A stretch of 64,000 nucleotides of DNA from NCBI RefSeq assembly GCF_003425685.1, contig NZ_QJKM01000006.1, forward strand, positions 248,001 through 312,000, written 5' to 3'. The notes below the pieces were generated by a model, which was not told the DNA's origin, did not search any database, and was given only the letters and a program-made list of their open reading frames with translations. Positions 20,145 to 31,706 of this stretch are shown in pieces (within the stretch, counting starts at the first letter, position 1; every line of letters starts with the position of its first letter). Both the position numbers and the translations under genes were made by a program. This stretch comes from Rhizobium terrae (GTDB lineage: Bacteria > Pseudomonadota > Alphaproteobacteria > Rhizobiales > Rhizobiaceae).

Positions 20145-20309
20145 GTCGAGGTTTCCAAAATCACGGGCTGAAAATACCGGGGAAAGCCAACGCGGCGAGA
20201 TTGGTCGGGCGGCGGCATGCTATTATGTAGCCGACGACCATGGAATCGGCGCACTGTCCTCGCCGGGCGCGAACATGCCCGAGAACGGACATCGCGGAAG
20301 GACATAGCC

Positions 20310-21227
20310 TTGACCCTGAGACATCCGGAATATCAATATCTCGACCTCATGGCGCATCTCCTGGAGAACGGTGACAAGCGGATCGACCGCACCGGCGTCG
20401 GCACGCTTTCGATGTTCGGAGCGATGATGCGCTTCGATCTTTCGGACGGCTCGTTCCCGGTCTATTCGACCAAGCGGGTCTACTGGAAGACCGCCGTCAA
20501 GGAGATGCTCTGGTTCCTGACCGGCCAGACGAACATCCAGTCGCTGCTGCGCGAAAACGTCCGCATCTGGACCGACTGGCCGCTCGCCGCCTACCGCAAG
20601 GCGACCGGCACCGAAATCTCGCAGCAGGATTTCGAAGACAGGATTTTGGCGGACGACGGTTTCGCCGAGGAATGGGGTGATCTCGGCCCGGTCTACGGCA
20701 AGCAGTGGCGCCGCTGGAAGGGCGCCGACGGCAAGGAATACGATCAGGTGGCGGAAGTCATCGAACTTCTGCGCAAGAACCCGTCGAGCCGCCGCATGCT
20801 GTTCCATGCCTGGAACGTGCCGGAACTCTCGCAGATGGCACTGCATCCCTGCCATATGACCTACCAGTTCCACGTCTCCAATCTCGGTGGCGACGGCCTG
20901 CCCAAGGTTTCCATGATGGTCAGCCAGCGCTCCTGCGACATGGGGCTCGGCAATCCCTTCAATATCTGCCAGCAGGCGGCGCTGCTTGCCATGGTGGCGC
21001 AGCAGGTGGACATGCAGCCCGGCGAACTCGTCTGGGTCGGCGGCGACGTGCACCTCTATCTCGACCATCAGGATCTTGCGAGGACCGTGCTGGAAAGGGA
21101 ACCGCGGCCGTTTCCGAACCTGAAGCTGCTTCGCCGCCCGGACAGCATCGACGGGTATACGATCGACGATTTCGAGGTGACGGGCTACGATCCCTATCCG
21201 GCCATCGAGGCGCCGGTTGCCGTCTGA
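20310..21227 (+). CDS. thyA: Thymidylate synthase
   Basis: Converts dUMP to dTMP using methylene-tetrahydrofolate. The product is 305 residues and carries the catalytic cysteine motif LHPCHMTYQFHV, the phosphate-binding SQRSCDMGLGNPFNI, and the C-terminal APVAV closure. It contains the extra segment of the long form seen in Lactobacillus casei (about residues 90-130, EISQQDFEDRI...). The best start is TTG at 20310 (then TLRHPEYQYLDL) with GGAAGGA seven bases upstream; an upstream ATG at 20217 adds a non-conserved Arg-rich head. Its partner folA lies 10 kb further on. Confidence 0.93.
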   Translation: MTLRHPEYQYLDLMAHLLENGDKRIDRTGVGTLSMFGAMMRFDLSDGSFPVYSTKRVYWKTAVKEMLWFLTGQTNIQSLLRENVRIWTDWPLAAYRKATGTEISQQDFEDRILADDGFAEEWGDLGPVYGKQWRRWKGADGKEYDQVAEVIELLRKNPSSRRMLFHAWNVPELSQMALHPCHMTYQFHVSNLGGDGLPKVSMMVSQRSCDMGLGNPFNICQQAALLAMVAQQVDMQPGELVWVGGDVHLYLDHQDLARTVLEREPRPFPNLKLLRRPDSIDGYTIDDFEVTGYDPYPAIEAPVAV

Positions 21228-21387: not shown

Positions 21388-23778
21388 TCAGCCCGGCCAT
21401 TTCCAGTTCCGGATTTCGGGCATGTCCTCGCCGTGTTCGCGGACATAGCGGGTGTGCTCTTCAAGCCTGCCATTCAGCATGCCGATCACGGCGGCGGCCT
21501 TTTCCTTCAGGCCCGGCACGCGTTCGATCGCCTCGATGGCGAGATGGAACCGGTCGAGCTGGTTCAGCACCGTCATGTCGAAAGGCGTCGTGGTCGTGCC
21601 TTCCTCGACGAAGCCGCGCACATGGATGTTGCGGTGGTTGGTGCGCTTGTAGGTCAGCCGGTGGATGAGGTAAGGATAGCCGTGATAGGCGAAGATCACC
21701 GGACGGTCGGTGGTGAACAGCCGGTCGAAGGCGTCGTCGCTCAATCCGTGCGGATGCTGGTCCGGCGACTGCAGTGCCATCAGATCGACCACGTTGACGA
21801 CACGGATTTTCAGCTCCGGAATTGCCGCGCGCAGCAGTGTCACCGCCGCCAGCGTCTCCATGGTCGGCACGTCGCCGGCGCAGGCCATGACCACGTCGGG
21901 CGCCACCGCGCCGTCCTCGTTGCCCGCCCAGTCCCAGGCGCCGATGCCGGCCTCGCAATGCTTCACCGCCTCGTCCATCGTCAGCCATTGCGGTTCCGGC
22001 TGCTTGCCGGCGACGATGACGTTGATGCGATCCCAGGTCTTCAGGCAATGATCGCCGACCCAGAGCAGCGTATTGGCATCCGGCGGCAGGTAGATCCGCA
22101 CGGTATCGGCCTTCTTGTTGGCGACGAGATCGACGAAGCCCGGATCCTGGTGGGAAAAGCCGTTATGATCCTGCCGCCAGACATGCGACGTCAGCAGATA
22201 GTTGAGCGAGGAGACGGGTTTGCGCCAGGCCAGCTCGCGGGAGACCTTCAGCCATTTGGCATGCTGGTTGAACATCGAATCGATGATATGGATGAAGGCT
22301 TCGTAGCAGGAGAAGAAGCCGTGCCGGCCGGTCAGGAGATAACCTTCGAGCCATCCCTGGCAAAGGTGTTCGCTCAGGACTTCCATGACGCGGCCGTCAC
22401 GCGACAGGTGCACGTCGTAGGGCTCGATCGCCTGCATCCAGACACGGTCGGTGACTTCGAAGACGGCCCCGAGCCGGTTGGATTCCGTTTCGTCCGGCCC
22501 GAAGATGCGGAAATTCGCATTCGCATCGTTGAGCTTCAGGATGTCGCGCAGGTATTGCCCGAGGATTTCGGTGGTCTGCACCATGGCGGCGCCGCGTTTC
22601 GCGACCGGTACCGCATAATTGCGGATATCCGGCACGACCAGCTCCTTGCGCAGGAGGCCGCCATTGGCATGCGGATTGGCTCCCATGCGCCGTTCGCCGC
22701 CCGGCGACAAGGCGCGCAGCTCCTCCTTCAGGCGGCCATTGGCATCGAACAGGTCCTCCGGGTCGTAGCTTCTCATCCAGTCTTCGAGGATTTTCCGGTG
22801 GCCTTCGTTCTCCCGGCAACCGGCGACCGGCACCTGATGGGCACGCCAGAAATCCTCGACCTTCTTGCCGTCCACCTCCCTGGGGCCGGTCCAGCCCTTC
22901 GGGCTTCTCAGCACGATCATCGGCCAGCGCGGGCAGGCGTCCGGCGCCTTTCCGTCACGAGCCTGCGACTGGATGGCATGGATGCGATCGAAGACCTGGT
23001 CGAACATCGCCGCCATCTGGCGGTGCATCTGCTCCGGCTCGTGGCCTTCCACGAAGAAAGGCTCGTAGCCGTAACCGCGGAAGAGATGGTCGAGGTCTTC
23101 ATCGCTCGTCCGGGCAAGCAGGGTGGGGTTGGCGATCTTGTAGCCGTTCAGATGCAGGATCGGCAGGACCGCCCCGTCGCGGACCGGATTGATGAACTTG
23201 TTCGACTGCCAGCTTGCGGCGAGCGGACCGGTTTCGGCCTCGCCGTCGCCGACGACGCAGGCGACAATCAGGTTCGGGTTGTCGAAGGCGGCGCCATAGG
23301 CGTGCACCAGCGCATAACCCAGTTCGCCGCCCTCGTGGATGGAGCCGGGCGTTTCCGGCGCCGCATGGCTCGGTATGCCGCCCGGAAAGGAGAACTGCTT
23401 GAAGAGCTTTTTCATGCCCGCGGCGTCCTCGGAAATCTCCGGATAGATTTCGCTGTAGGTGCCTTCGAGATAGGTGCTGGCCACCATGCCGGGGCCGCCA
23501 TGGCCGGGGCCGCAGACATAGATCATGTCGAGATCGCGTTTGCGGATGACACGGTTCAGGTGGGTGTAGATGAAATTCAGGCCGGGCGTGGTACCCCAGT
23601 GGCCAAGCAGGCGCGGCTTGATGTGTTCGGCCTTCAGCGGCTCGCGAAGGAGGGGATTGTCGAGCAAATAGATCTGTCCGACCGAGAGGTAATTGGCGGC
23701 CCGCCAGTAGCGGTCCATGAGCGCCAGCTCTTCGTTGCCGATCTCCGGCGTCGCGGGCGAGGGGGTGTTCGGCTGCAT
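21388..23778 (-). CDS. xfp: Xylulose-5-phosphate/fructose-6-phosphate phosphoketolase
   Basis: A 796-residue thiamine-diphosphate enzyme that splits xylulose-5-P (and often fructose-6-P) with phosphate to acetyl phosphate and glyceraldehyde-3-P (or erythrose-4-P). Family signatures: [58 protein letters not shown], and the ThDP motif [20 protein letters not shown]. Length is normal. The start [13 protein letters not shown] (ATG at 23778) has AAGGAG seven bases upstream. The frame is open far further upstream through ackA, but that is a shadow. It lies 74 bp downstream of ackA on the same strand, so the two form an operon turning sugar phosphate into ATP and acetate. Confidence 0.95.
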
Positions 23779-23852
23779 GTTAAAGCTCCTTCGAATGATC
23801 CGTCGAAAAATCTGTTGCGGTTCTACCCCGGGGTGAAAGGCATGGTGATGAT

Positions 23853-25052
23853 CTAGGTCAGGAAGGGCCGGTCTTTCTTCTCGATCACGGAGAGGCATTC
23901 CTCGGCGATCACCTGCTCCTCGTCCGTCGGAATGACGTGGACGGCGATGCGGCTGGCGGGCGTGCTGATCTTCGAGGCGTTCCTGTCGTTCTCCGCGTCG
24001 TCCAGTTCGACGCCGAGCCAAAGCAGGCGGTCTGCGATCTGCCGGCGGATCTTCGGCTGATTTTCCCCGATGCCGGCAGTGAAGACGAGGGCGTCGAGCC
24101 CGCCGAGCGTGGATGCCAGCCGGCATATTTCTCCCGCGATCCGCAGCACGAAGAGATCGATCGCCTGCCGCGCCTCCTCGCTGCCGTCGTCGAGAAGTTC
24201 GCGGATGTCGCCGCTCGATCCCGAGACGCCGAGCAGGCCGGAGCGATGGTAGAGCATGTCCTCGACCTCTTCGAACGATCTGCCGAGAGGTCCCAGGAAA
24301 TGCAGCAGGGCGCCCGGATCGAGCCAGCCGGGGCGGGTCGCCATCGGAATGCCGTCCAGCGTCGAGAAGCCCATGCTGGTATCGCGGCTTTGGCCGTCTT
24401 TGACGGCGCAGAGGCTGGCGCCGCTGCCGAGATGGGCGATCACCACCTTGCCGAGAGCGATGTCCGGCGCCTTCCGTGTCAGTGCTCCCGCCACATGGCG
24501 GTAGGAAAGCCCATGGAAGCCGTAACGCTTGATGCCTCTGTCGTGATAGGCGCGCGGTATCGCGAGCCGCCGCACGAGGTCCGCCTGGGTGGCGTGGAAA
24601 TCGGTGTCGAACGACCCGGTCTGGAAGAGGGCCGGGCGGAGATGCCTGAGCGCCTTTACCAGCCGCAATGCCTGCGGCTGGTGCAGCGGCGCGAGTTCCG
24701 TGAGCGACCTCACCTTTTCGATCGTCGCCGTGTCGAGCGCGGCCGGTCCGTCGAAGATGTCGCCGCCATGGACGATGCGATGGCCTGCCGCGGCGACCGC
24801 ATCGAGGTCGAAATGGGCGCCGAGCTCGCGGAAGACCTCGTCGATGAGTTCGGCGAGATCCTCGCCGGCCTCCTTCTTCAAGGGCAGGTCGAACTGCGCC
24901 GGGCCTTCCTTGAGATGCAGGGTCAGGGGCCTTGCGGCGAGATCGACGACCGCCTTTCCGATACGCTCCGGCTTTCCCTCGGCCAGCCTGAAAATGCCGA
25001 TCTTCACGCTGGAGGAGCCGGCGTTGAACGTCAGGAGAAGCTTGTCCGTCAT
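23853..25052 (-). CDS. ackA: Acetate kinase
   Basis: A 399-residue enzyme making ATP from acetyl phosphate and ADP (reversibly). Signature motifs: [15 protein letters not shown] at the N-terminus, [34 protein letters not shown], and [13 protein letters not shown]. The start ATG at 25052 ([10 protein letters not shown]) has AAGGGG seven bases upstream; the frame stays open upstream but with no family similarity. It is the first gene of the ackA-xfp pair, and phosphoketolase supplies its substrate directly. No pta gene is adjacent. Confidence 0.95.
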
Positions 25053-25384
25053 GCGACGCCCCTTGTCTCGTGGCCCGGGCCGATCCGCGTTGCAGCCTCG
25101 GCCGAGGCCGGCGCCGCTGCAAGGCGGCCGGGGATCGACGGAAGGATAGGGGCGCGGGCCGCAAGAACCAGTGCATTCGCGCCGGCAAAATTGACCAAAT
25201 GTTGGGCGAGCATAAAACGGGCCTCGCGTGAAGACGATTTTTTGCCGGGCAGGCCGGCTGGCCGTGCCTTGTTGCCCTCGGCGGCGGCGCCTTTCCTTGA
25301 CGTAACGCAAGGCGGGCTCCGGCGTCATGAAGAATTGATCTTGCCGGTGCAGGCTCGACAAGACCTCAATACGGGAAAGAGACG
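25053..25384. other. Divergent promoter region, ackA / pyruvate-kinase-like gene
   Basis: A 332-bp non-coding region. The right-hand part holds a FixK/FNR-type dyad (25297-25310) suitably placed for the gene at 25385. An AT-rich patch (about 25187-25215) lies nearer ackA. I found no second dyad close enough to ackA for standard activation. Confidence 0.6.
25297..25310 (+). promoter_or_regulatory. FixK/FNR-type box before pyruvate-kinase-like gene
   Basis: TTGACGTAACGCAA fits the relaxed FixK consensus TTG(A/C)-N6-(T/G)CAA. Its centre is about 81 bp before the ATG at 25385. If it activates from -41.5, transcription starts near 25345, leaving a 40-nt leader. Confidence 0.6.
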
Positions 25385-26887
25385 ATGTTGGAACCAGTCG
25401 AAGATACTTCCGGTGTTGCGGGCGGTCTTGCCGGTCTCGGCGAGGAAATTGCAGCGCTCCGCAACGATATATCCATCCAGGGTGCTTCCCGGTTCGAGGC
25501 GTTCGTCGGGACCGGCAGCCCGGCGGAAGACAAGCGGGCCAGCCTGGACAATCTGTGCCATTACCTGTCGCTGCGGCAGCACGATCTCAGGGATCTGCAG
25601 AGAAAGCTGATGTGGCGGGGATTTTCGTCCCTCGGCCGGCTGGAGAGCCGCGTCCTTCCGACGATGGATGCCGTTCTTGCGGCAATTGCGGCCATGCGCG
25701 GCGTCGATCCGCCATTTCCGCCGCCTTCGGAAGAGCAGTTCTTCCGGGGCGAGCTCCTGCTTAGGCAGGCGACGGACGAGCTTTTCGGACCGCCTCGCGC
25801 CGGGCGGCGCGGCCGCATCATGGTGACGCTTCCGAGCGAGGCCGCCGGCCAGCCGGACTTCATTCTCGATCTCGCCCGGCGCGGCATGGACGTGGCGCGG
25901 ATCAACTGCGCCCATGACGACGAAAAGGCCTGGGCGGAAATGGCAAAGCACATAAGGGCGGCGGCTGGGACCCTCGGCCGTCCGCTGACGATCCTCATGG
26001 ACATCGCCGGACCGAAGATCCGCACGGAAACGGTGGCTGCGGAAAAGGGCGCCAAGCTGCAGACCGGCGATCTCCTGCGGCTGGTCGCGAGCGGCGCGCC
26101 ATATGCGACGCCCGAGGCGCCGTTCTGCGCCGCCGTTTCACTGCCGGAGATCGTCACCCGGCTGTCGGTCGGAGACCGCCTCCGCTATGACGACGGCAAG
26201 CTGGAGGGGGTCGTCGAAAGCGTCACGGACGGCGAGGCGCTGGTGCGCATCGGCCATACGAAGACGGGCGGCGCCAAGCTGAAGCCGGAAAAGGGGCTCA
26301 ACCTGCCCGACACGGCGCTCGGGCTCTCGCCGCTGACCGCCAAGGACCATAACGATCTCGCGACGATCATCGGGCATGCCGACATGCTCGGTTATTCCTT
26401 CGTCAGCCGGCCCGAGGATATCGACCTCCTGGAGGAAGCGCTTGCCGAATTTCCCCGTCGGGACCGGGCGCTCGGCCTGATCGCCAAGATCGAACAGCCT
26501 GAGGCGGTCACCAACCTGCCGGCGCTCATCGCCCGCGCCCGCTGCCGCAACCGGCCCTTCGGGGTGATGATCGCCCGCGGCGACCTGGCGGCCGAGATCG
26601 GCTTCGAGCGCGTCGCGGAAATGCAGGAGGAAATCCTCTGGATCTGCGAAGCGGCGGCGGTGCCGACCGTATGGGCGACGCAGGTTCTGGAAGACCTGGT
26701 GAAGGACGGCCTGCCCTCACGGGGCGAGATGACCGACGCCGCCATGGCCGCCCGGGCCGAATGCGTGATGCTCAACAAGGGGCCGGCGGTGGCCGAGGCC
26801 GTGACACTGCTGGACAGCCTGCTGGCCCGCATGGACGGCCATATCTTCAAGAAGACACCGACCCTGCGGGCGCTGAAGTCGTGGTAG
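25385..26887 (+). CDS. Atypical pyruvate kinase-like protein
   Basis: A 500-residue protein with the core of pyruvate kinase (PEP + ADP to pyruvate + ATP): RIMVTLPSEA, GMDVARINCAHDDE, ILMDIAGPKIRTE, KGLNLPDTALGLSPLTAKD, the catalytic-lysine segment LIAKIEQPEAVTNL, and MIARGDLAAEIGFERVAEMQ. It differs from standard enzymes in two ways. About 125 residues of unrelated helical sequence precede the core, and it ends shortly after the barrel, so the C-terminal regulatory domain is absent. It is probably an unregulated variant. It lies divergent from ackA-xfp and has its own FixK-type box. Confidence 0.82.
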   Translation: MLEPVEDTSGVAGGLAGLGEEIAALRNDISIQGASRFEAFVGTGSPAEDKRASLDNLCHYLSLRQHDLRDLQRKLMWRGFSSLGRLESRVLPTMDAVLAAIAAMRGVDPPFPPPSEEQFFRGELLLRQATDELFGPPRAGRRGRIMVTLPSEAAGQPDFILDLARRGMDVARINCAHDDEKAWAEMAKHIRAAAGTLGRPLTILMDIAGPKIRTETVAAEKGAKLQTGDLLRLVASGAPYATPEAPFCAAVSLPEIVTRLSVGDRLRYDDGKLEGVVESVTDGEALVRIGHTKTGGAKLKPEKGLNLPDTALGLSPLTAKDHNDLATIIGHADMLGYSFVSRPEDIDLLEEALAEFPRRDRALGLIAKIEQPEAVTNLPALIARARCRNRPFGVMIARGDLAAEIGFERVAEMQEEILWICEAAAVPTVWATQVLEDLVKDGLPSRGEMTDAAMAARAECVMLNKGPAVAEAVTLLDSLLARMDGHIFKKTPTLRALKSW

Positions 26888-26907
26888 CGCGGTGACGGCC
26901 GTGCCCG

Positions 26908-26921
26908 TTGACCCACGTCAA
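26908..26921 (+). promoter_or_regulatory. Perfect FixK/FNR box before APH/P-loop fusion gene
   Basis: TTGAC-CCAC-GTCAA is a perfect dyad of the FNR/FixK type. Its centre is 66 bp before the ATG at 26981, predicting a start of transcription near 26956 and a 25-nt leader. This also argues against the alternative upstream start at 26945. Confidence 0.75.
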
Positions 26922-26980
26922 GGTCGCGAAGCGGGCAGGGTGGCTTGCTTCGGACAGGCGGTTTGGCGAGGACGAACAGG

Positions 26981-28501
26981 ATGATGACCGAAGAGCAGGA
27001 CGGCACGATCGCCTTTCTGGCAGATCCGGCCACCCACGGCGGGTTGGAACCGATAAACATAATCCATACTCACATTTCTGTGATCGTTCTCGTCGGCGAT
27101 CGTGCTTTCAAGATGAAGAAGGCGCTGAAGCTGCCCTATGTGGACTTTTCCACCGCGACGATCCGTGAGGAGGCCTGCCGCAAGGAAGTCTCCTTCAACC
27201 GGGAAACCGCCCCCGGCCTTTATCTCGGCGTGCGGCGGATCACCCGCTCGGCCGGCGGCGCTCTGGAATTCGAAGGAGACGGGCCGCTGGTCGATGCGGT
27301 CGTCGAGATGACGCGGTTCGAACAGGAGCAGCTTTTCGACAGGATGGCCGTCGCCGGCCGGCTGACGCCCGCTCTGATGACGGAGGCCGCACGGATGATC
27401 GCCGAATATCACGGCAAGGCGCCGGTCGTTGCCGCCGGCGGAGGCGCCGACAATATCGCCGCCGTGCTCGACATCAATGACGCGGGTTTTGCCACCAGCA
27501 GCGTTTTTGCTCCGGAGACGATCGCCGCGCTCGGCGCGCGATTTCGCTCGGTGCTGCGCCGCCATGCGCCGCTGCTCGATCGCCGGGCCGAAGGCGGCAG
27601 GGTGCGCTGTTGCCACGGGGATCTTCATCTTCGCAATATCTGCCTTCTGAACGGAAAACCCTGCCTCTTCGACTGCATCGAGTTCAGCGCGCAGATCGCC
27701 ACGATCGACGTTCTCTACGACCTCGCCTTCCTGCTCATGGATCTCTGGCATCGTGGCTTTCCCGAGTTCGCCAATCTTGTGATGAACCGCTATCTCGATG
27801 AGACGGGCGACGAGGAGGGGTTTTGCCTGCTGCCGTTCTTCATGGCGGTGAGGGCGGCCGTTCGCGCCCATGTCACGGCGACGCAGGCCGAGGAGCCCGG
27901 CCAGGACCTCGACAGGCTGTCGGGGGAGGCGAAATCCTATTTCGACCTGGCGCAGGCCCTACTCGGGGACAGTGCACCGCTTCTCGTGGCGATCGGCGGC
28001 CTGAGCGGTTCGGGCAAGTCGACGGTCGCCGACTGCCTGGCGCCGCGGATCGGCGCCGCGCCCGGCGCAAGGATGGTCGAAAGCGACCGGATAAGAAAGG
28101 CGCTGCACGGCGTGCCGGCGGAAACGAGGCTGCCGGTCACGGCTTATAGTCCCGAGGTTTCCGCGAAGGTCTATCAGGAGATGGTCCGGCGCGCCGAAAC
28201 CATCCTTGCACAGGGCGGTTCGGTGGTAGCCGACGCCGTTTTCGACGATCCGGCCAAGCGCCATCTCATTGAGAATGCGGCCGCGGGTGCCGGCAATGTG
28301 CCGGAGTTCCTCGGGATCTGGCTCGATGCCGACCCGGCGCTGCTGATGCAGCGGGTCAGGCGCCGCGTCGGCGGCCCTTCGGATGCGAATGCGGACGTGC
28401 TGGCCGGTCAGCTTGCCCGCAATCCGACGGACGTCGCATGGCGGCATGTCGATGCGTCGCAGCCGCCGGACGCGATCGTCGCCGCCATCCTTTGCCGTTA
28501 A
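26981..28501 (+). CDS. Bifunctional aminoglycoside-phosphotransferase-like / P-loop ATP-binding protein
   Basis: A 506-residue two-domain protein. The first part (to about 320) resembles APH/kinase-fold proteins, with CCHGDLHLRNICLLNGKPCLFD (catalytic His-Gly-Asp and Asn) and IEFSAQIATIDVLYDLAFL. The second part (about 330-506) is a small P-loop kinase-like domain, LLVAIGGLSGSGKSTVADCL. This combination is a known family (COG2187 joined to COG0645). Mycobacterium tuberculosis Rv2004c, of the hypoxic DosR regulon, has the same plan. Substrate unknown; antibiotic resistance should not be assumed. The perfect FixK box in front ties it to low oxygen here too. Confidence 0.8.
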   Translation: MMTEEQDGTIAFLADPATHGGLEPINIIHTHISVIVLVGDRAFKMKKALKLPYVDFSTATIREEACRKEVSFNRETAPGLYLGVRRITRSAGGALEFEGDGPLVDAVVEMTRFEQEQLFDRMAVAGRLTPALMTEAARMIAEYHGKAPVVAAGGGADNIAAVLDINDAGFATSSVFAPETIAALGARFRSVLRRHAPLLDRRAEGGRVRCCHGDLHLRNICLLNGKPCLFDCIEFSAQIATIDVLYDLAFLLMDLWHRGFPEFANLVMNRYLDETGDEEGFCLLPFFMAVRAAVRAHVTATQAEEPGQDLDRLSGEAKSYFDLAQALLGDSAPLLVAIGGLSGSGKSTVADCLAPRIGAAPGARMVESDRIRKALHGVPAETRLPVTAYSPEVSAKVYQEMVRRAETILAQGGSVVADAVFDDPAKRHLIENAAAGAGNVPEFLGIWLDADPALLMQRVRRRVGGPSDANADVLAGQLARNPTDVAWRHVDASQPPDAIVAAILCR

Positions 28502-28536
28502 GAGGCGCCACACTACCGTCCGGCGCCCCATTCCGA

Positions 28537-29571
28537 TCAGGCGGATGCGAAGTCCAGCACCATGCGGCCGTCGATCTTGCCGTCCTTGAGGTGCTTGAAG
28601 ATGTCGTTGATGTCTTCGAGCGGCGCCTTGTGGATTTCGGTCCTGACCTTGCCTTCGGTGGCGAAGGCGATCGCCTCGTCAAGGTCGCGGCGGGTGCCGA
28701 CGATCGAGCCGCGCACCGTGATGCGCTTCAGCACGACGTCGAAGATCGGTGTCGGGAATTCTCCGGGCGGCAGGCCGACGAGGCTTACCGTTCCCTTCCG
28801 CCGCACCATGCGGATCGCCTGGGAGAACGCGGGAGGAGAAACGGCGGTCACGAGGATGCCATGCGCGCCGCCGCCGGTCGCGGTGAGGACTTCTTCGACC
28901 GCGGTCAGAGCACGGGCGTCCACGGCGAGGTCCGCTCCGAGGCTGCGGGCAAGTTCGAGCTTTTCGGCACTGACGTCGAGGGCGGCGACCTTCAGTCCCA
29001 TCGCCTTGGCATACTGGACGGCGACATGGCCGAGGCCGCCGATGCCGGAAATCGCCACCCATTCGCCGGGACGGGCTTCCGTTTCCTTGAGCCCCTTGTA
29101 GGTTGTCACGCCGGCGCAGAGAATGGGCGACATCGCCGCGAAATCGACATCCTGCGGGAGCCGGGCGGCGAAGGCCGCGGAAGCGATGACATATTCGGCG
29201 AAACCCCCATTGCAGCTGTAGCCGGTATTGTGCTGGTGCTCGCAGAGCGTTTCCCAACCGGTCTCGCAATATTCGCAGCGCAGGCAGGCATCGTGGAGCC
29301 AGGCGACGCCGACCGCGTCGCCTTCCTTGAATTCCGTGACGCCGGGGCCGAGTTCGACCACCACGCCTGCGGCTTCGTGCCCGGGGATGAAGGGCGGCGT
29401 GGGCTTGACCGGCCAATCGCCATCGGCGGCGTGAAGGTCGGTGTGGCATACGCCGCAGGCCATGACCTTGACGAGGATTTCTCCCGGCCCTGGAACCGGT
29501 ACCGGCACGCACTCGATTGCGAGAGGTTTGCCGAACTGATGCACGACGGCAGCTTTCATCATCCTGGCCAT
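28537..29571 (-). CDS. adhP: Zinc-dependent alcohol dehydrogenase (AdhP type)
   Basis: A 344-residue NAD-dependent enzyme interconverting primary alcohols and aldehydes. Catalytic-zinc ligands lie in MACGVCHTDLHAADGDW and GHEAAGVVVE; the structural-zinc set is complete (CLRCEYCETGWETLC); the NAD fold shows GIGGLGHVAVQYAKAMG. The start MARMMKAAVVHQFG at 29571 has GGAAGGAG six bases upstream; a longer frame from 29652 would begin at the FixK box itself. In this block it could recycle NADH by reducing acetaldehyde, though no acetaldehyde-forming enzyme is present here. Confidence 0.9.
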   Translation of the reverse strand: MARMMKAAVVHQFGKPLAIECVPVPVPGPGEILVKVMACGVCHTDLHAADGDWPVKPTPPFIPGHEAAGVVVELGPGVTEFKEGDAVGVAWLHDACLRCEYCETGWETLCEHQHNTGYSCNGGFAEYVIASAAFAARLPQDVDFAAMSPILCAGVTTYKGLKETEARPGEWVAISGIGGLGHVAVQYAKAMGLKVAALDVSAEKLELARSLGADLAVDARALTAVEEVLTATGGGAHGILVTAVSPPAFSQAIRMVRRKGTVSLVGLPPGEFPTPIFDVVLKRITVRGSIVGTRRDLDEAIAFATEGKVRTEIHKAPLEDINDIFKHLKDGKIDGRMVLDFASA

Positions 29572-29638
29572 CTCTGTCTCCTTCCTGTGGGAACAACGGT
29601 GTCGGCCGGGACTTTTCGACAAAACCGGCGCCCGCTCA

Positions 29639-29652
29639 TTGACCCAGCGCAA
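29639..29652 (-). promoter_or_regulatory. FixK/FNR-type box before adhP
   Basis: TTGACCCAGCGCAA fits TTG(A/C)-N6-(T/G)CAA. Its centre is about 75 bp before the adhP ATG, predicting transcription from about 29604 if activation is from -41.5. Confidence 0.6.
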
Positions 29653-29690
29653 TGGTCAAGACTGCCTGCATCGGATGCCATGCGGGGCTT

Positions 29691-29704
29691 TTGACAACGG
29701 TCAA
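29691..29704 (+). promoter_or_regulatory. Perfect FixK/FNR box before the 150-residue protein gene
   Basis: TTGAC-AACG-GTCAA is a perfect dyad, centred about 90 bp before the ATG at 29788. It lies 38 bp beyond the adhP-facing box, so this short divergent region has one box for each direction. Confidence 0.75.
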
Positions 29705-29787
29705 TGCGCAGGTGGCGAAACGTGGCAGGCTGAAGGACCGACGACCGGCGGGGCCGGTCTCGGCAGCTTTTCCGGCGGAGTGATGGG

Positions 29788-30240
29788 ATGGAGATGGAAT
29801 GCGATGCAAGAGAGCTGAGCGAAGCGGATGTCTATCGCGCCTTTGCGGTCATTCAGCACGTCATGCCCGGTTTTGATCTGGAAGCCTGGAAAACCCTGAC
29901 GGCCACGCCGGCCCTCCGGTACAACTGGCTGACCGTCACCGACCCGCAGGGCTACATACGCGGCCTCTGCCACGTCTTCCTCAGCCAGCATCCCGCCCTG
30001 GGACGCCAGCTCGAAGTGCCGATCTTTGCATCCGTCAGCCTCATCGACGAACAGGGTGTCGTCAAACGACTCTTCGAACTGGCCGAGAGGCGTGCAAGGC
30101 AGGAAGCATGCGATTCGATGCATTTCTGGCCGGCCGGTTCGCTGGACTGGAACAACGTCCTGAACCTCAGGCAAAGCGGCTCCTGGAGCCAGGGGCTGGT
30201 CTATCGCCTGCCGGCCGAGCGGGGGCCGGTCATCCACTGA
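29788..30240 (+). CDS. Unrecognised 150-residue protein
   Basis: I do not recognise this protein. It begins MEMECDARELSEADVYRAFAVIQHVMPG and has an alternating helix/strand look: WLTVTDPQGYIRGLCHVFLSQ resembles the central strands of a GNAT-like fold, and a helix KRLFELAERRARQEAC follows. There is no signal peptide or membrane segment. The GNAT resemblance is a guess; no acetyl-CoA-binding R/Q-x-x-G-x-G/A loop is visible. A perfect FixK box precedes it, and its 3' end overlaps that of the response regulator by 11 bp, tail to tail. Confidence 0.65.
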   Translation: MEMECDARELSEADVYRAFAVIQHVMPGFDLEAWKTLTATPALRYNWLTVTDPQGYIRGLCHVFLSQHPALGRQLEVPIFASVSLIDEQGVVKRLFELAERRARQEACDSMHFWPAGSLDWNNVLNLRQSGSWSQGLVYRLPAERGPVIH

Positions 30241-30958
30241 TCTTTCCGGTGAATACGTAACCGACCCCGCGGACGGCCTTGATGAGTTGAGGCTGGCTCG
30301 CGTCGGCTTCGATCTTGCGGCGGAGCCTTACGATCTGGGCATCGACGGTCCGGTCAAAAGCCTCAAGCTGGCGTCCGCGGGTGGCGTCCATCAGGAATTC
30401 CCGGGTGAGCACCCGGCCGGCATGCTGCACGAATGTCGCCAGCATGTCGAATTCGCCGGTGGTGAGCTCCACCTCGGCGCCTTGGGACAGCAACTGGCGG
30501 CGTGCCAGATCGAGCGTCCAGCCTTCGAACCGGATGAGCTTGTCGTCGTCGGCATTCTGCTTCGGAGCCGCAGGCTGGCGGCGCCGGAGAATGGATTTCA
30601 GCCGGGCATGCACTTCGCGCAGGTGAAAGGGCTTGGCGATATAATCGTCCGCGCCGATCTCGATGCCGATGATCCGGTCGATGACGTCGTCGCGGCCCGT
30701 CAGCATCATGATCGGCACGTCGGACGTGGTCCGCACCTCTCGGGCAAGGTCCAGTCCGTCCTTGCCGCCGGGCAGGGAAAGATCGAGAAGGATGATGTCG
30801 ACATTCCGCAGCTTCAACTGCGAATGCATTTCGCTGCCGTCCGCGGCGCCGCTGACGGTATAACCTTCGCCCTCGAAATAGCGGGTGAGCATCTGGCGGA
30901 TCCTGTCGTCGTCATCGACGACGAGAATATGTGCGGCGTCTGGTGGGCGAAATGACAT
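30230..30958 (-). CDS. OmpR-family response regulator (orphan)
   Basis: A 242-residue two-domain regulator. The receiver domain has the acidic pair ILVVDDDDRIRQML, phospho-acceptor Asp in IILLDLSLPG, Thr in MMLTGRDD and Lys in DDYIAKPF. The winged-helix DNA-binding domain has ELTTGEFDMLATFVQHAGRVL and RTVDAQIVRLRRKI. No histidine kinase gene is next to it. It ends the accessory block and faces folA divergently over 217 bp. Whether it controls the low-oxygen genes is not shown by the sequence. Confidence 0.9.
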   Translation of the reverse strand: MSFRPPDAAHILVVDDDDRIRQMLTRYFEGEGYTVSGAADGSEMHSQLKLRNVDIILLDLSLPGGKDGLDLAREVRTTSDVPIMMLTGRDDVIDRIIGIEIGADDYIAKPFHLREVHARLKSILRRRQPAAPKQNADDDKLIRFEGWTLDLARRQLLSQGAEVELTTGEFDMLATFVQHAGRVLTREFLMDATRGRQLEAFDRTVDAQIVRLRRKIEADASQPQLIKAVRGVGYVFTGKISG

Positions 30959-31175
30959 GGATAAGGAAACCGCGTCGTTACAATCTGTTGCACAAACGAA
31001 CCGTCTCGAATACCGCTAGCATTGGCCGGCCTGGCCGTTCCGGTCAACCGGCTTCATCCCGCAAACGGAGACAATGCTATTTTTTCACAAGTGGTTCGAA
31101 CGCACTCCATAAGCCGAATTCTGCATTTGCCTATGAGACATATTGCCTATTGGCGGCAGCTTGCCGGGAGCTGAC

Positions 31176-31706
31176 ATGACAAAACCTACTCTTGCCGTCA
31201 TCGTCGCGGTGTCGCGCAACGGCGTGATCGGCCGCGAGGGCGAGATGCCGTGGCGGCTTTCGACCGATCTCAAGCGTTTCAAGGCCTTGACGCTCGGCAA
31301 GCCGGTCATCGTCGGGCGCAAGACCTTCGAAAGTTTCGGGGGCAGGCCGCTGCCCGGCCGGCCGCACGTGATCATTACCCGCAACCGCGAATTCTCCTTC
31401 GACGGCGTCGAGGTCGCCGAATCGCTCCGGGACGCCATCCGCCGCGCTGAGCACAAGGCCGCCGAAACCGGCGCCGATTCAATCTACGTGCTCGGCGGCG
31501 GCCAGATCTATGCCGAAGCGATCGGGATCGCCGACACATTGTACGTCACGCATGTCGAGACCGAGATTTCCGACGGCGATACGTTCTTCCCGGCGATAGA
31601 TCCGAGCGCGTTCGAGCTGATCAAGGAAGTTTTCGTTCCGGCAGGCGAGAAGGACAATTATCCGACGCGCTTTGCCACCTACCGCCGCCGAAGCGCGGCA
31701 AACTGA
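31176..31706 (+). CDS. folA: Dihydrofolate reductase
   Basis: A 176-residue enzyme that reduces dihydrofolate with NADPH, closing the thymidylate cycle with ThyA. Motifs: VAVSRNGVIGREGEMPWRLS, the acidic active-site residue in STDLKRFKALT, KPVIVGRKTFESFG, and YVLGGGQIYAEA. The start MTKPTLAVIV has GGGAG upstream; an in-frame ATG at 31143 is less likely. It heads the folA-hflK-hflC-degP direction. Confidence 0.95.
   Translation: MTKPTLAVIVAVSRNGVIGREGEMPWRLSTDLKRFKALTLGKPVIVGRKTFESFGGRPLPGRPHVIITRNREFSFDGVEVAESLRDAIRRAEHKAAETGADSIYVLGGGQIYAEAIGIADTLYVTHVETEISDGDTFFPAIDPSAFELIKEVFVPAGEKDNYPTRFATYRRRSAAN

Follow-up and report, generated by a model that had tools for sequence, protein, structure and literature searches.

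A probable low-oxygen response block carrying fxkR and conserved FixK/FNR-type boxes between thyA and folA in Rhizobium terrae

The window analysed here is a stretch of 64,000 nucleotides of Rhizobium terrae, a soil-dwelling relative of Neorhizobium (assembly GCF_003425685.1, contig NZ_QJKM01000006.1, positions 248,001 to 312,000, forward strand), within which a block of seven genes and four FixK/FNR-type boxes lies between thyA and folA (Table 1). All seven genes described in an initial annotation of this DNA are found with the expected domains (Pfam, NCBIfam); these encode a phosphoketolase (xfp), an acetate kinase (ackA), a pyruvate kinase-like protein (pykL), an APH-type phosphotransferase (aphP), a zinc alcohol dehydrogenase (adhP), an unnamed protein with a GNAT fold and an OmpR-type regulator. 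The last of these is indeed of the OmpR type, but it is not a mere member of the block: it is FxkR, a signaling protein that acts upstream of FixK. As judged from sequence comparisons, the block probably is part of a Rhizobiaceae low-oxygen response island that carries FxkR along with several genes of the FixK regulon.

Genes were called using a simple codon-usage script. Most names of neighbouring genes (fixOQP, fixGHIS, Usp, HlyD, NUDIX and ABC), both in this genome and in its relatives, were assigned by reading the sequence; names checked against Pfam are those of fixN, hFixL, fixKf, FixK, FixJ, FixL, pta, two malic enzymes and one ATPase. Coordinates lacking a contig prefix are window positions; C4, C8, C25, C34, C56, C67 and C77 designate contigs of the same genome.

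Table 1. Genes, regulatory sites and borders of the thyA-folA interval (window positions).
Feature	Position	Strand	Basis
thyA, long form, 306 aa, left border	20307..21227	+	PF00303; 86-88% to 5/56 genus mates
xfp, phosphoketolase, 796 aa	21388..23778	-	XFP_N, XFP, XFP_C; NCBIfam NF003621 1647 bits, cut-off 1295
ackA, acetate/propionate kinase, 399 aa	23853..25052	-	PF00871; NF005462 633.5 bits, cut-off 486
pta relic (phosphate acetyltransferase), ~28 codons	25142..25225	-	tblastn; position of pta in relatives
FixK/FNR-type box 1, TTGACGTAACGCAA, between ackA and pykL	25297..25310	.	exact pattern match; conserved
pykL, pyruvate kinase-like, barrel and N-terminal extension, no C-terminal domain	25385..26887	+	PF00224 at 141-465 only
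FixK/FNR-type box 2, TTGACCCACGTCAA, upstream of aphP	26908..26921	.	exact pattern match; conserved
aphP, APH-type phosphotransferase fused to AAA_33 P-loop domain, 506 aa	26981..28501	+	PF01636 and PF13671 over cut-off
adhP, zinc alcohol dehydrogenase, 344 aa	28537..29571	-	NCBIfam NF006940 365.5 bits, cut-off 344
FixK/FNR-type box 3, TTGACCCAGCGCAA, upstream of adhP	29639..29652	.	exact pattern match; conserved
FixK/FNR-type box 4, TTGACAACGGTCAA, upstream of GNAT-fold gene	29691..29704	.	exact pattern match; conserved
Unnamed GNAT-fold protein, 150 aa, tail to tail with fxkR	29788..30240	+	
fxkR, OmpR-type response regulator of hFixL-FxkR-FixK cascade	30230..30958	-	73-74% to known FxkR
K-box (FxkR site), GTTACAATCTGTTGCA, one mismatch	30977..30992	+	18 bp before fxkR
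folA, right border	31176..31706	+	PF00186

The four boxes all sit in intergenic DNA of the block and, as had been claimed, fit TTG(A/C)-N6-(T/G)CAA exactly, two of them (boxes 2 and 4) perfectly as TTGAC-N4-GTCAA; the spacing from box to start codon is 74 (box 1), 59 (box 2), 67 (box 3) and 83 bp (box 4). Four of the five sites in the window that match this loose pattern fall within the 1127 bp of intergenic DNA of the block, the fifth (31287) lying within folA. First-order Markov simulations predict 0.098 loose and 0.003 strict sites within these 1127 bp, and no simulation among 20,000 reached either four loose or two strict sites. A genome scan, similar in aim to the matrix scan that the initial annotation had proposed, yields 51 sites of the strict form (TTGAY-N4-RTCAA) as compared with five for a reversed control; 47 of the 51, the window's two not among them, were read, and 37 of these are outside of called genes. 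Strict boxes occur upstream of fixNOQP (C4:203743), fixGHIS (C4:207456), three Usp-like genes, a P-type ATPase-like gene and others. Palindromes of the form TTGACAGCTGTCAA occur at C77:154378, 330120 and 330448, none of them within 320 bp upstream of a called gene, and are perhaps another protein's site or a repeat.

Conservation was assessed using a footprint set of 40 loci (L093-L132), with matches excluded if they spanned under 60% of the query or began past its residue 20; the 120 'relatives' compared overall include the R. terrae genome itself. Within this set, a box is present upstream of pykL in 9/9 orthologues, of aphP in 11/12 and of adhP in 7/8, and a strict box is present upstream of the GNAT-fold gene in 17/17 (the counts for the latter two genes share one intergenic region, the scanned stretches of which overlap). 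Among the comparison genes, boxes are rare before xfp (4/34) and ackA (1/21) and absent before thyA (0/4), folA (0/4), hflK (0/4) and fxkR (0/5). Relatives with conserved boxes have differing surroundings around these same genes; moreover, because ten genus-mate loci (L093-L101 and L104) have xfp-ackA and the GNAT-fold gene together and away from thyA and folA, the boxes travel with the genes.

FxkR contains a PF00072 receiver domain and a PF00486 winged-helix output domain, both over cut-off. It shares 73% identity with FxkR9 of R. leguminosarum 3841 (now R. johnstonii), encoded on pRL9, and 74% with a protein of R. etli CFN42 p42f, on which the fxkR gene of R. etli is located (PMC4125696) and where this protein is the sole match to the window's FxkR at E 1e-60. 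The next full-length homologue within the R. terrae genome is 46% identical, and the block apparently carries the only full copy of fxkR. A 43-residue stretch at C25:2938-3066, within an 81-aa frame, is 86% identical to FxkR residues 190-232 and is perhaps a remnant of a second fxkR. The site bound by FxkR in the hFixL-FxkR-FixK cascade, namely the K-box, is given as GTTACA-N4-GTTACA (PMC4999443, PMC7888657). The genome contains one perfect K-box, at C4:215006-215021, which is 86 bp before fixKf (C4:214164-214919) and hfixL (C4:212221-214140)--that is, on a contig other than that of fxkR--and the K-box with one mismatch close to the start of fxkR itself (Table 1). The hFixL protein is a hybrid with a PAS-HisKA-HATPase-receiver arrangement; C4 also carries fixN. 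In relatives, a K-box with at most one mismatch is found before fixKf in 5/5 loci, and one with zero to two mismatches before fxkR in 5/5 loci examined.

Which Crp/Fnr protein might act on the FixK/FNR-type boxes was explored using PF13545, with 150 of 233 first-look candidates scored: 27 Crp-type helix-turn-helix matches were found in the genome, seven strong and 20 weaker. When read by eye, none of the seven strong Crp/Fnr proteins has the N-terminal cysteine cluster that is a feature of FnrN (PMC7888657), and the 20 weaker matches were read as other helix-turn-helix regulators, none of the FnrN type. Hence control of the boxes by FnrN, which had been named as a possible regulator, is unlikely. 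The initial annotation had regarded the lack of any FixK/Fnr protein in the genome as grounds for giving up its proposal; FixK-type regulators are present. In addition to fixKf, there is a FixK-like gene beside FixJ- and FixL-like genes at C56:137449-140796, on the window's own contig, and FixK would be expected to share its target boxes with FixKf. The boxes might thus be worked mainly by this second, FixLJ-FixK cascade, with FxkR as a passenger; this is, however, rather unlikely, inasmuch as K-boxes are kept both at fxkR's own start and before fixKf, and fxkR, the GNAT-fold gene and xfp-ackA occur together on another replicon. Nor are the two cascades mutually exclusive.

Another Crp/Fnr protein of the NnrR/DNR-like type, responding to nitric oxide, could likewise use the boxes, in which case the block would mediate a nitrosative or denitrification response. 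Consistent with this, genes judged by eye to be NnrR-like occur at C34:169661 (with a strict box of its own) and C8:16139, boxes 1 and 3 carry a CGCAA half-site, and the R. etli fxkR gene adjoins nirK and an NnrU gene. Yet the asymmetric form TTGAC-N4-CGCAA is that of the published FixK2 site before xfp-ack of Bradyrhizobium diazoefficiens (PMC9104804), and in several genomes there is linkage to fxkR, fixKf and hfixL, so that a nitric oxide response is very unlikely. The original proposal of a low-oxygen block of the FixK/FNR type is supported in that the boxes are conserved, FixK-type regulators exist and strict boxes precede fixNOQP and fixGHIS; xfp-ackA lacks a near box of its own.

The location of the block bears upon its origin. 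A comparison of thyA-folA spacing, as suggested initially, shows that 48 of 56 genus mates have under 300 bp between these genes and a thyA of a short form, 41-50% identical to the window's thyA over residues 117-306. A long thyA with 86-88% identity is found in only five of the 56 (G022, G027, G048, G049 and G054), where it is 8.0, 7.9, 17.4, 22.2 and 1.2 kb from folA, respectively; three others (G008, G011 and G030) have a long form with 75-77% identity, away from folA. Together these eight have thyA and folA either 1.2 to 51 kb apart (six genomes) or on different contigs (two genomes). To the initial annotation the block looked like an insertion into a run of thyA, folA, hflKC and degP such as several rhizobia have. 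The block is indeed foreign to the usual arrangement, but it is not a clean insertion: thyA itself is of the long form. Instead, the block is interpreted as belonging to a movable low-oxygen island, which, along with the long-form thyA, would have displaced the native short-form gene beside folA. The converse--that the order thyA-block-folA is ancestral and that relatives lost the block, without any replacement of a native thyA--is quite unlikely: although G022, G027, G048 and G049 keep xfp-ackA, and G054 keeps fxkR, between thyA and folA, the short thyA adjoining folA in the 48 genus mates is a different one, and the ten loci mentioned above hold the xfp-ackA-GNAT genes elsewhere.

Other genomes point to the content of such an island. 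The thyA-folA interval of Neorhizobium petrolearium and of N. huautlense also holds P-type ATPase, ABC exporter, HlyD-like and NUDIX-like genes, with a Usp-like gene in addition in N. petrolearium; five of seven such N. petrolearium genes have homologues (66-86%) in R. terrae at C67:18000-26284 (read from 18000 rightward). In Agrobacterium tumefaciens, plasmid pQ15_94_1 (locus L252, 394059-412499), which is typed as conjugative, has one contiguous low-oxygen island with the order Usp, Hsp20, Usp, P-type ATPase, xfp, ackA, GNAT-fold gene, fxkR, fixKf, hfixL. Here xfp, ackA, the GNAT-fold gene and fxkR have the same order and orientation as in the window, and two boxes lie between ackA and the GNAT-fold gene; unlike in the window, the island adds fixKf-hfixL, Usp, Hsp20 and P-type ATPase genes, and pykL, aphP and adhP are unmatched (tblastn, E 1e-10) in the 18.4 kb read. 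Scattered and plasmid-borne copies such as these suggest that oxygen circuits move together with their metabolic targets.

Several observations weigh against an island of FixK-controlled genes headed by FxkR. First, the loose pattern is not in excess over the window as a whole (five sites found versus 3.24 expected, with 25 of 100 shuffles reaching five), and the box claim consequently rests on position and conservation. If that count were considered by itself, the boxes could be due to chance and the block a cluster of ordinary metabolic genes not controlled by oxygen; given the position of the boxes in the simulations and their conservation before orthologues, this is extremely improbable. 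Second, the relatives are related genomes and thus non-independent samples, and within their loci a near box is rare for xfp (4/34) and ackA (1/21). Third, the genome has no excess of K-boxes with one mismatch or none (six versus 11 in the control), so that their number is meaningless and their positions constitute the evidence; in four of the five relatives' loci, however, the K-box of fxkR is the same site as that of the divergent fixKf, that of N. petrolearium (L103), where fxkR is within the thyA-folA interval, has two mismatches, and no K-box within one mismatch occurs in the 18.4 kb of the pQ15_94_1 island. Fourth, most of the 79 pykL loci described next have no box and thus oxygen control of pykL is not general.

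Box control of pykL throughout Alphaproteobacteria was considered and rejected. The gene is widespread in this class and mostly boxless: 79 of the best 80 loci have a full upstream region, among which 16 have a loose and one a strict box. The corresponding frequencies for random stretches of the same loci (n=1503) are 1.7% and 0.3%, and thus there is an excess upstream of pykL; 13 of the 16 loose-box loci are titled Rhizobiaceae or 'Rhizobiales'. (Loci L145-L147 are from the same genomes as G048, G049 and G002.) The PykL protein itself has a pyruvate kinase barrel (PF00224, 162.5 bits) without a match to the C-terminal regulatory domain in Pfam and is under the NCBIfam cut-offs of all seven pyruvate kinase models listed (the best being PRK14725, with 540.5 versus 642); nevertheless, by reading of an alignment (A2), its active-site motifs are retained.

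The xfp-ackA genes appear to have lost a companion. In relatives, pta is first within pta-ackA-xfp, where it faces pykL across box 1 (Pfam PTA_PTB), and in R. terrae a tblastn search with the N. petrolearium pta finds, at that place, a relic with 60% identity over 30 residues (E 0.001). No stand-alone Pta was found in the genome, the only PTA domains being parts of two malic-enzyme proteins. Relics likewise occur in L105, L096, L098 and L109, and their differing lengths suggest repeated loss of pta. No box lies within 160 bp of xfp-ackA, and box 1 is 244 bp from ackA, with the pta relic between them. Even so, ackA-xfp may remain under the influence of box 1 by way of a leader of ~210 nt. Elsewhere in the genome, a strict box is 62 bp before a 497-aa frame (C77:79914) that by eye resembles an acetyl-CoA hydrolase/transferase; with pta lost, such an enzyme could turn acetate back into acetyl-CoA.

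These features are probably best explained by the following mechanism, in which the phosphorelay partners, binding events, oxygen response and fluxes are all inferred. At low oxygen, hFixL would phosphorylate FxkR, which would bind to the K-box before fixKf-hfixL and also to the second K-box near its own start, probably damping its own expression (by analogy with fxkR9, this site may repress fxkR; PMC7888657, Table 1). FixKf would then bind to the four boxes of the block and to those before fixNOQP and fixGHIS. The products of the block would bypass oxidative metabolism: Xfp would yield acetyl phosphate, from which AckA would generate ATP and acetate; PykL may form ATP from phosphoenolpyruvate; and AdhP may consume NADH. 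With pta in decay, the outlet for acetyl phosphate would mainly be AckA or else phosphorylation or acetylation of proteins. No nifH match over the cut-off was found in the genome and diazotrophy is thus without support; the seating of FxkR within a substrate-level ATP block in such a genome suggests that the FxkR cascade has a further role in the survival of free-living cells when oxygen is low. A testable regulon is provided by pykL, aphP, adhP and the GNAT-fold gene.

Regulons of this type are already known, since FixK control has been published for xfp-ack and predicted in Rhodopseudomonas palustris. In B. diazoefficiens, FixK2 is reported to control xfp-ack (bll2518-bll2517), expression of which is 10-fold lower without fixK2 and the box of which is TTGACCTCACGCAA (PMC9104804); phosphoketolase and adhP also appear in a microoxia table for this species, consulted without its column heads (PMC6515984). 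Shared with R. terrae are phosphoketolase, acetate kinase, adhP and the asymmetric form of box 1; by contrast, its xfp has its own box at -89, rather than one shared with pykL across a pta relic, and pykL, aphP and the GNAT-fold gene are additional here. The predicted FixK targets of R. palustris list together phosphoketolase, a putative kinase, zinc alcohol dehydrogenase, CBS and Hsp20 (PMC2908626), though this is a prediction for a phototroph, described there in terms of FixLJ rather than FxkR; its phosphoketolase gene is described as 9-fold lower without fixK in one condition and little changed in others (PMC3050613). The cascade of R. etli CFN42 and R. leguminosarum 3841 resembles that of R. 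terrae not only in FxkR but also in hFixL and FixKf (63% and 61%, respectively, to the pRL9 proteins), in having a K-box before both fixK and fxkR, and in that adhP, which is 85% identical to the window's, directly follows fxkR9 on pRL9 (L251, 27191-29263). It differs in that here fxkR and hfixL-fixKf are on separate contigs, fxkR is within a fermentation block, and neither an FnrN-like protein (among the 27 matches) nor nifH (over cut-off) is found. Literature linking FxkR with phosphoketolase, or anything closer, was not found among open-licence PMC papers, a search that does not establish absence from print. As far as such searches reach, the features that appear to be new are pykL, aphP and the GNAT-fold gene as regulon members, the place where fxkR sits, and the disappearance of pta.

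The unnamed protein between box 4 and fxkR merits attention as a member of a family that is often near fxkR. It has a GNAT fold but no Pfam or NCBIfam match. GNAT proteins usually have an acetyl-CoA loop, R/Q-x-x-G-x-G/A, before helix 3; in an alignment of the family (A1, n=27) this loop is missing, there being no conserved glycines at its position, where instead D87 is nearly invariant. None of the 27 members matches a Pfam GNAT family at E 0.1, and comparison with sequences of solved structures gives just two matches (E 0.6 and 1). A protein search at E 1e-5 returned 38 clusters; no Pfam domain is present in any of them, and all names shown are 'hypothetical protein'. It is a long shot, but this protein, the gene of which is often convergent with fxkR, might be a FixK-induced, dedicated partner of the oxygen circuit that adjusts FxkR or hFixL in response to the supply of acetyl groups, and acetyl phosphate made by Xfp might also phosphorylate FxkR directly; if so, then acetyl phosphate, pta being gone, would close a loop from metabolism to the oxygen regulator. 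The GNAT-fold gene is at most 600 bp from an fxkR in 24 of 41 places examined (based on 41 of the 42 non-own rows, with the second piece of a split G016 match dropped and weak matches kept, and on the first 55 relatives' rows), and it is found beside fxkR on plasmids as well.

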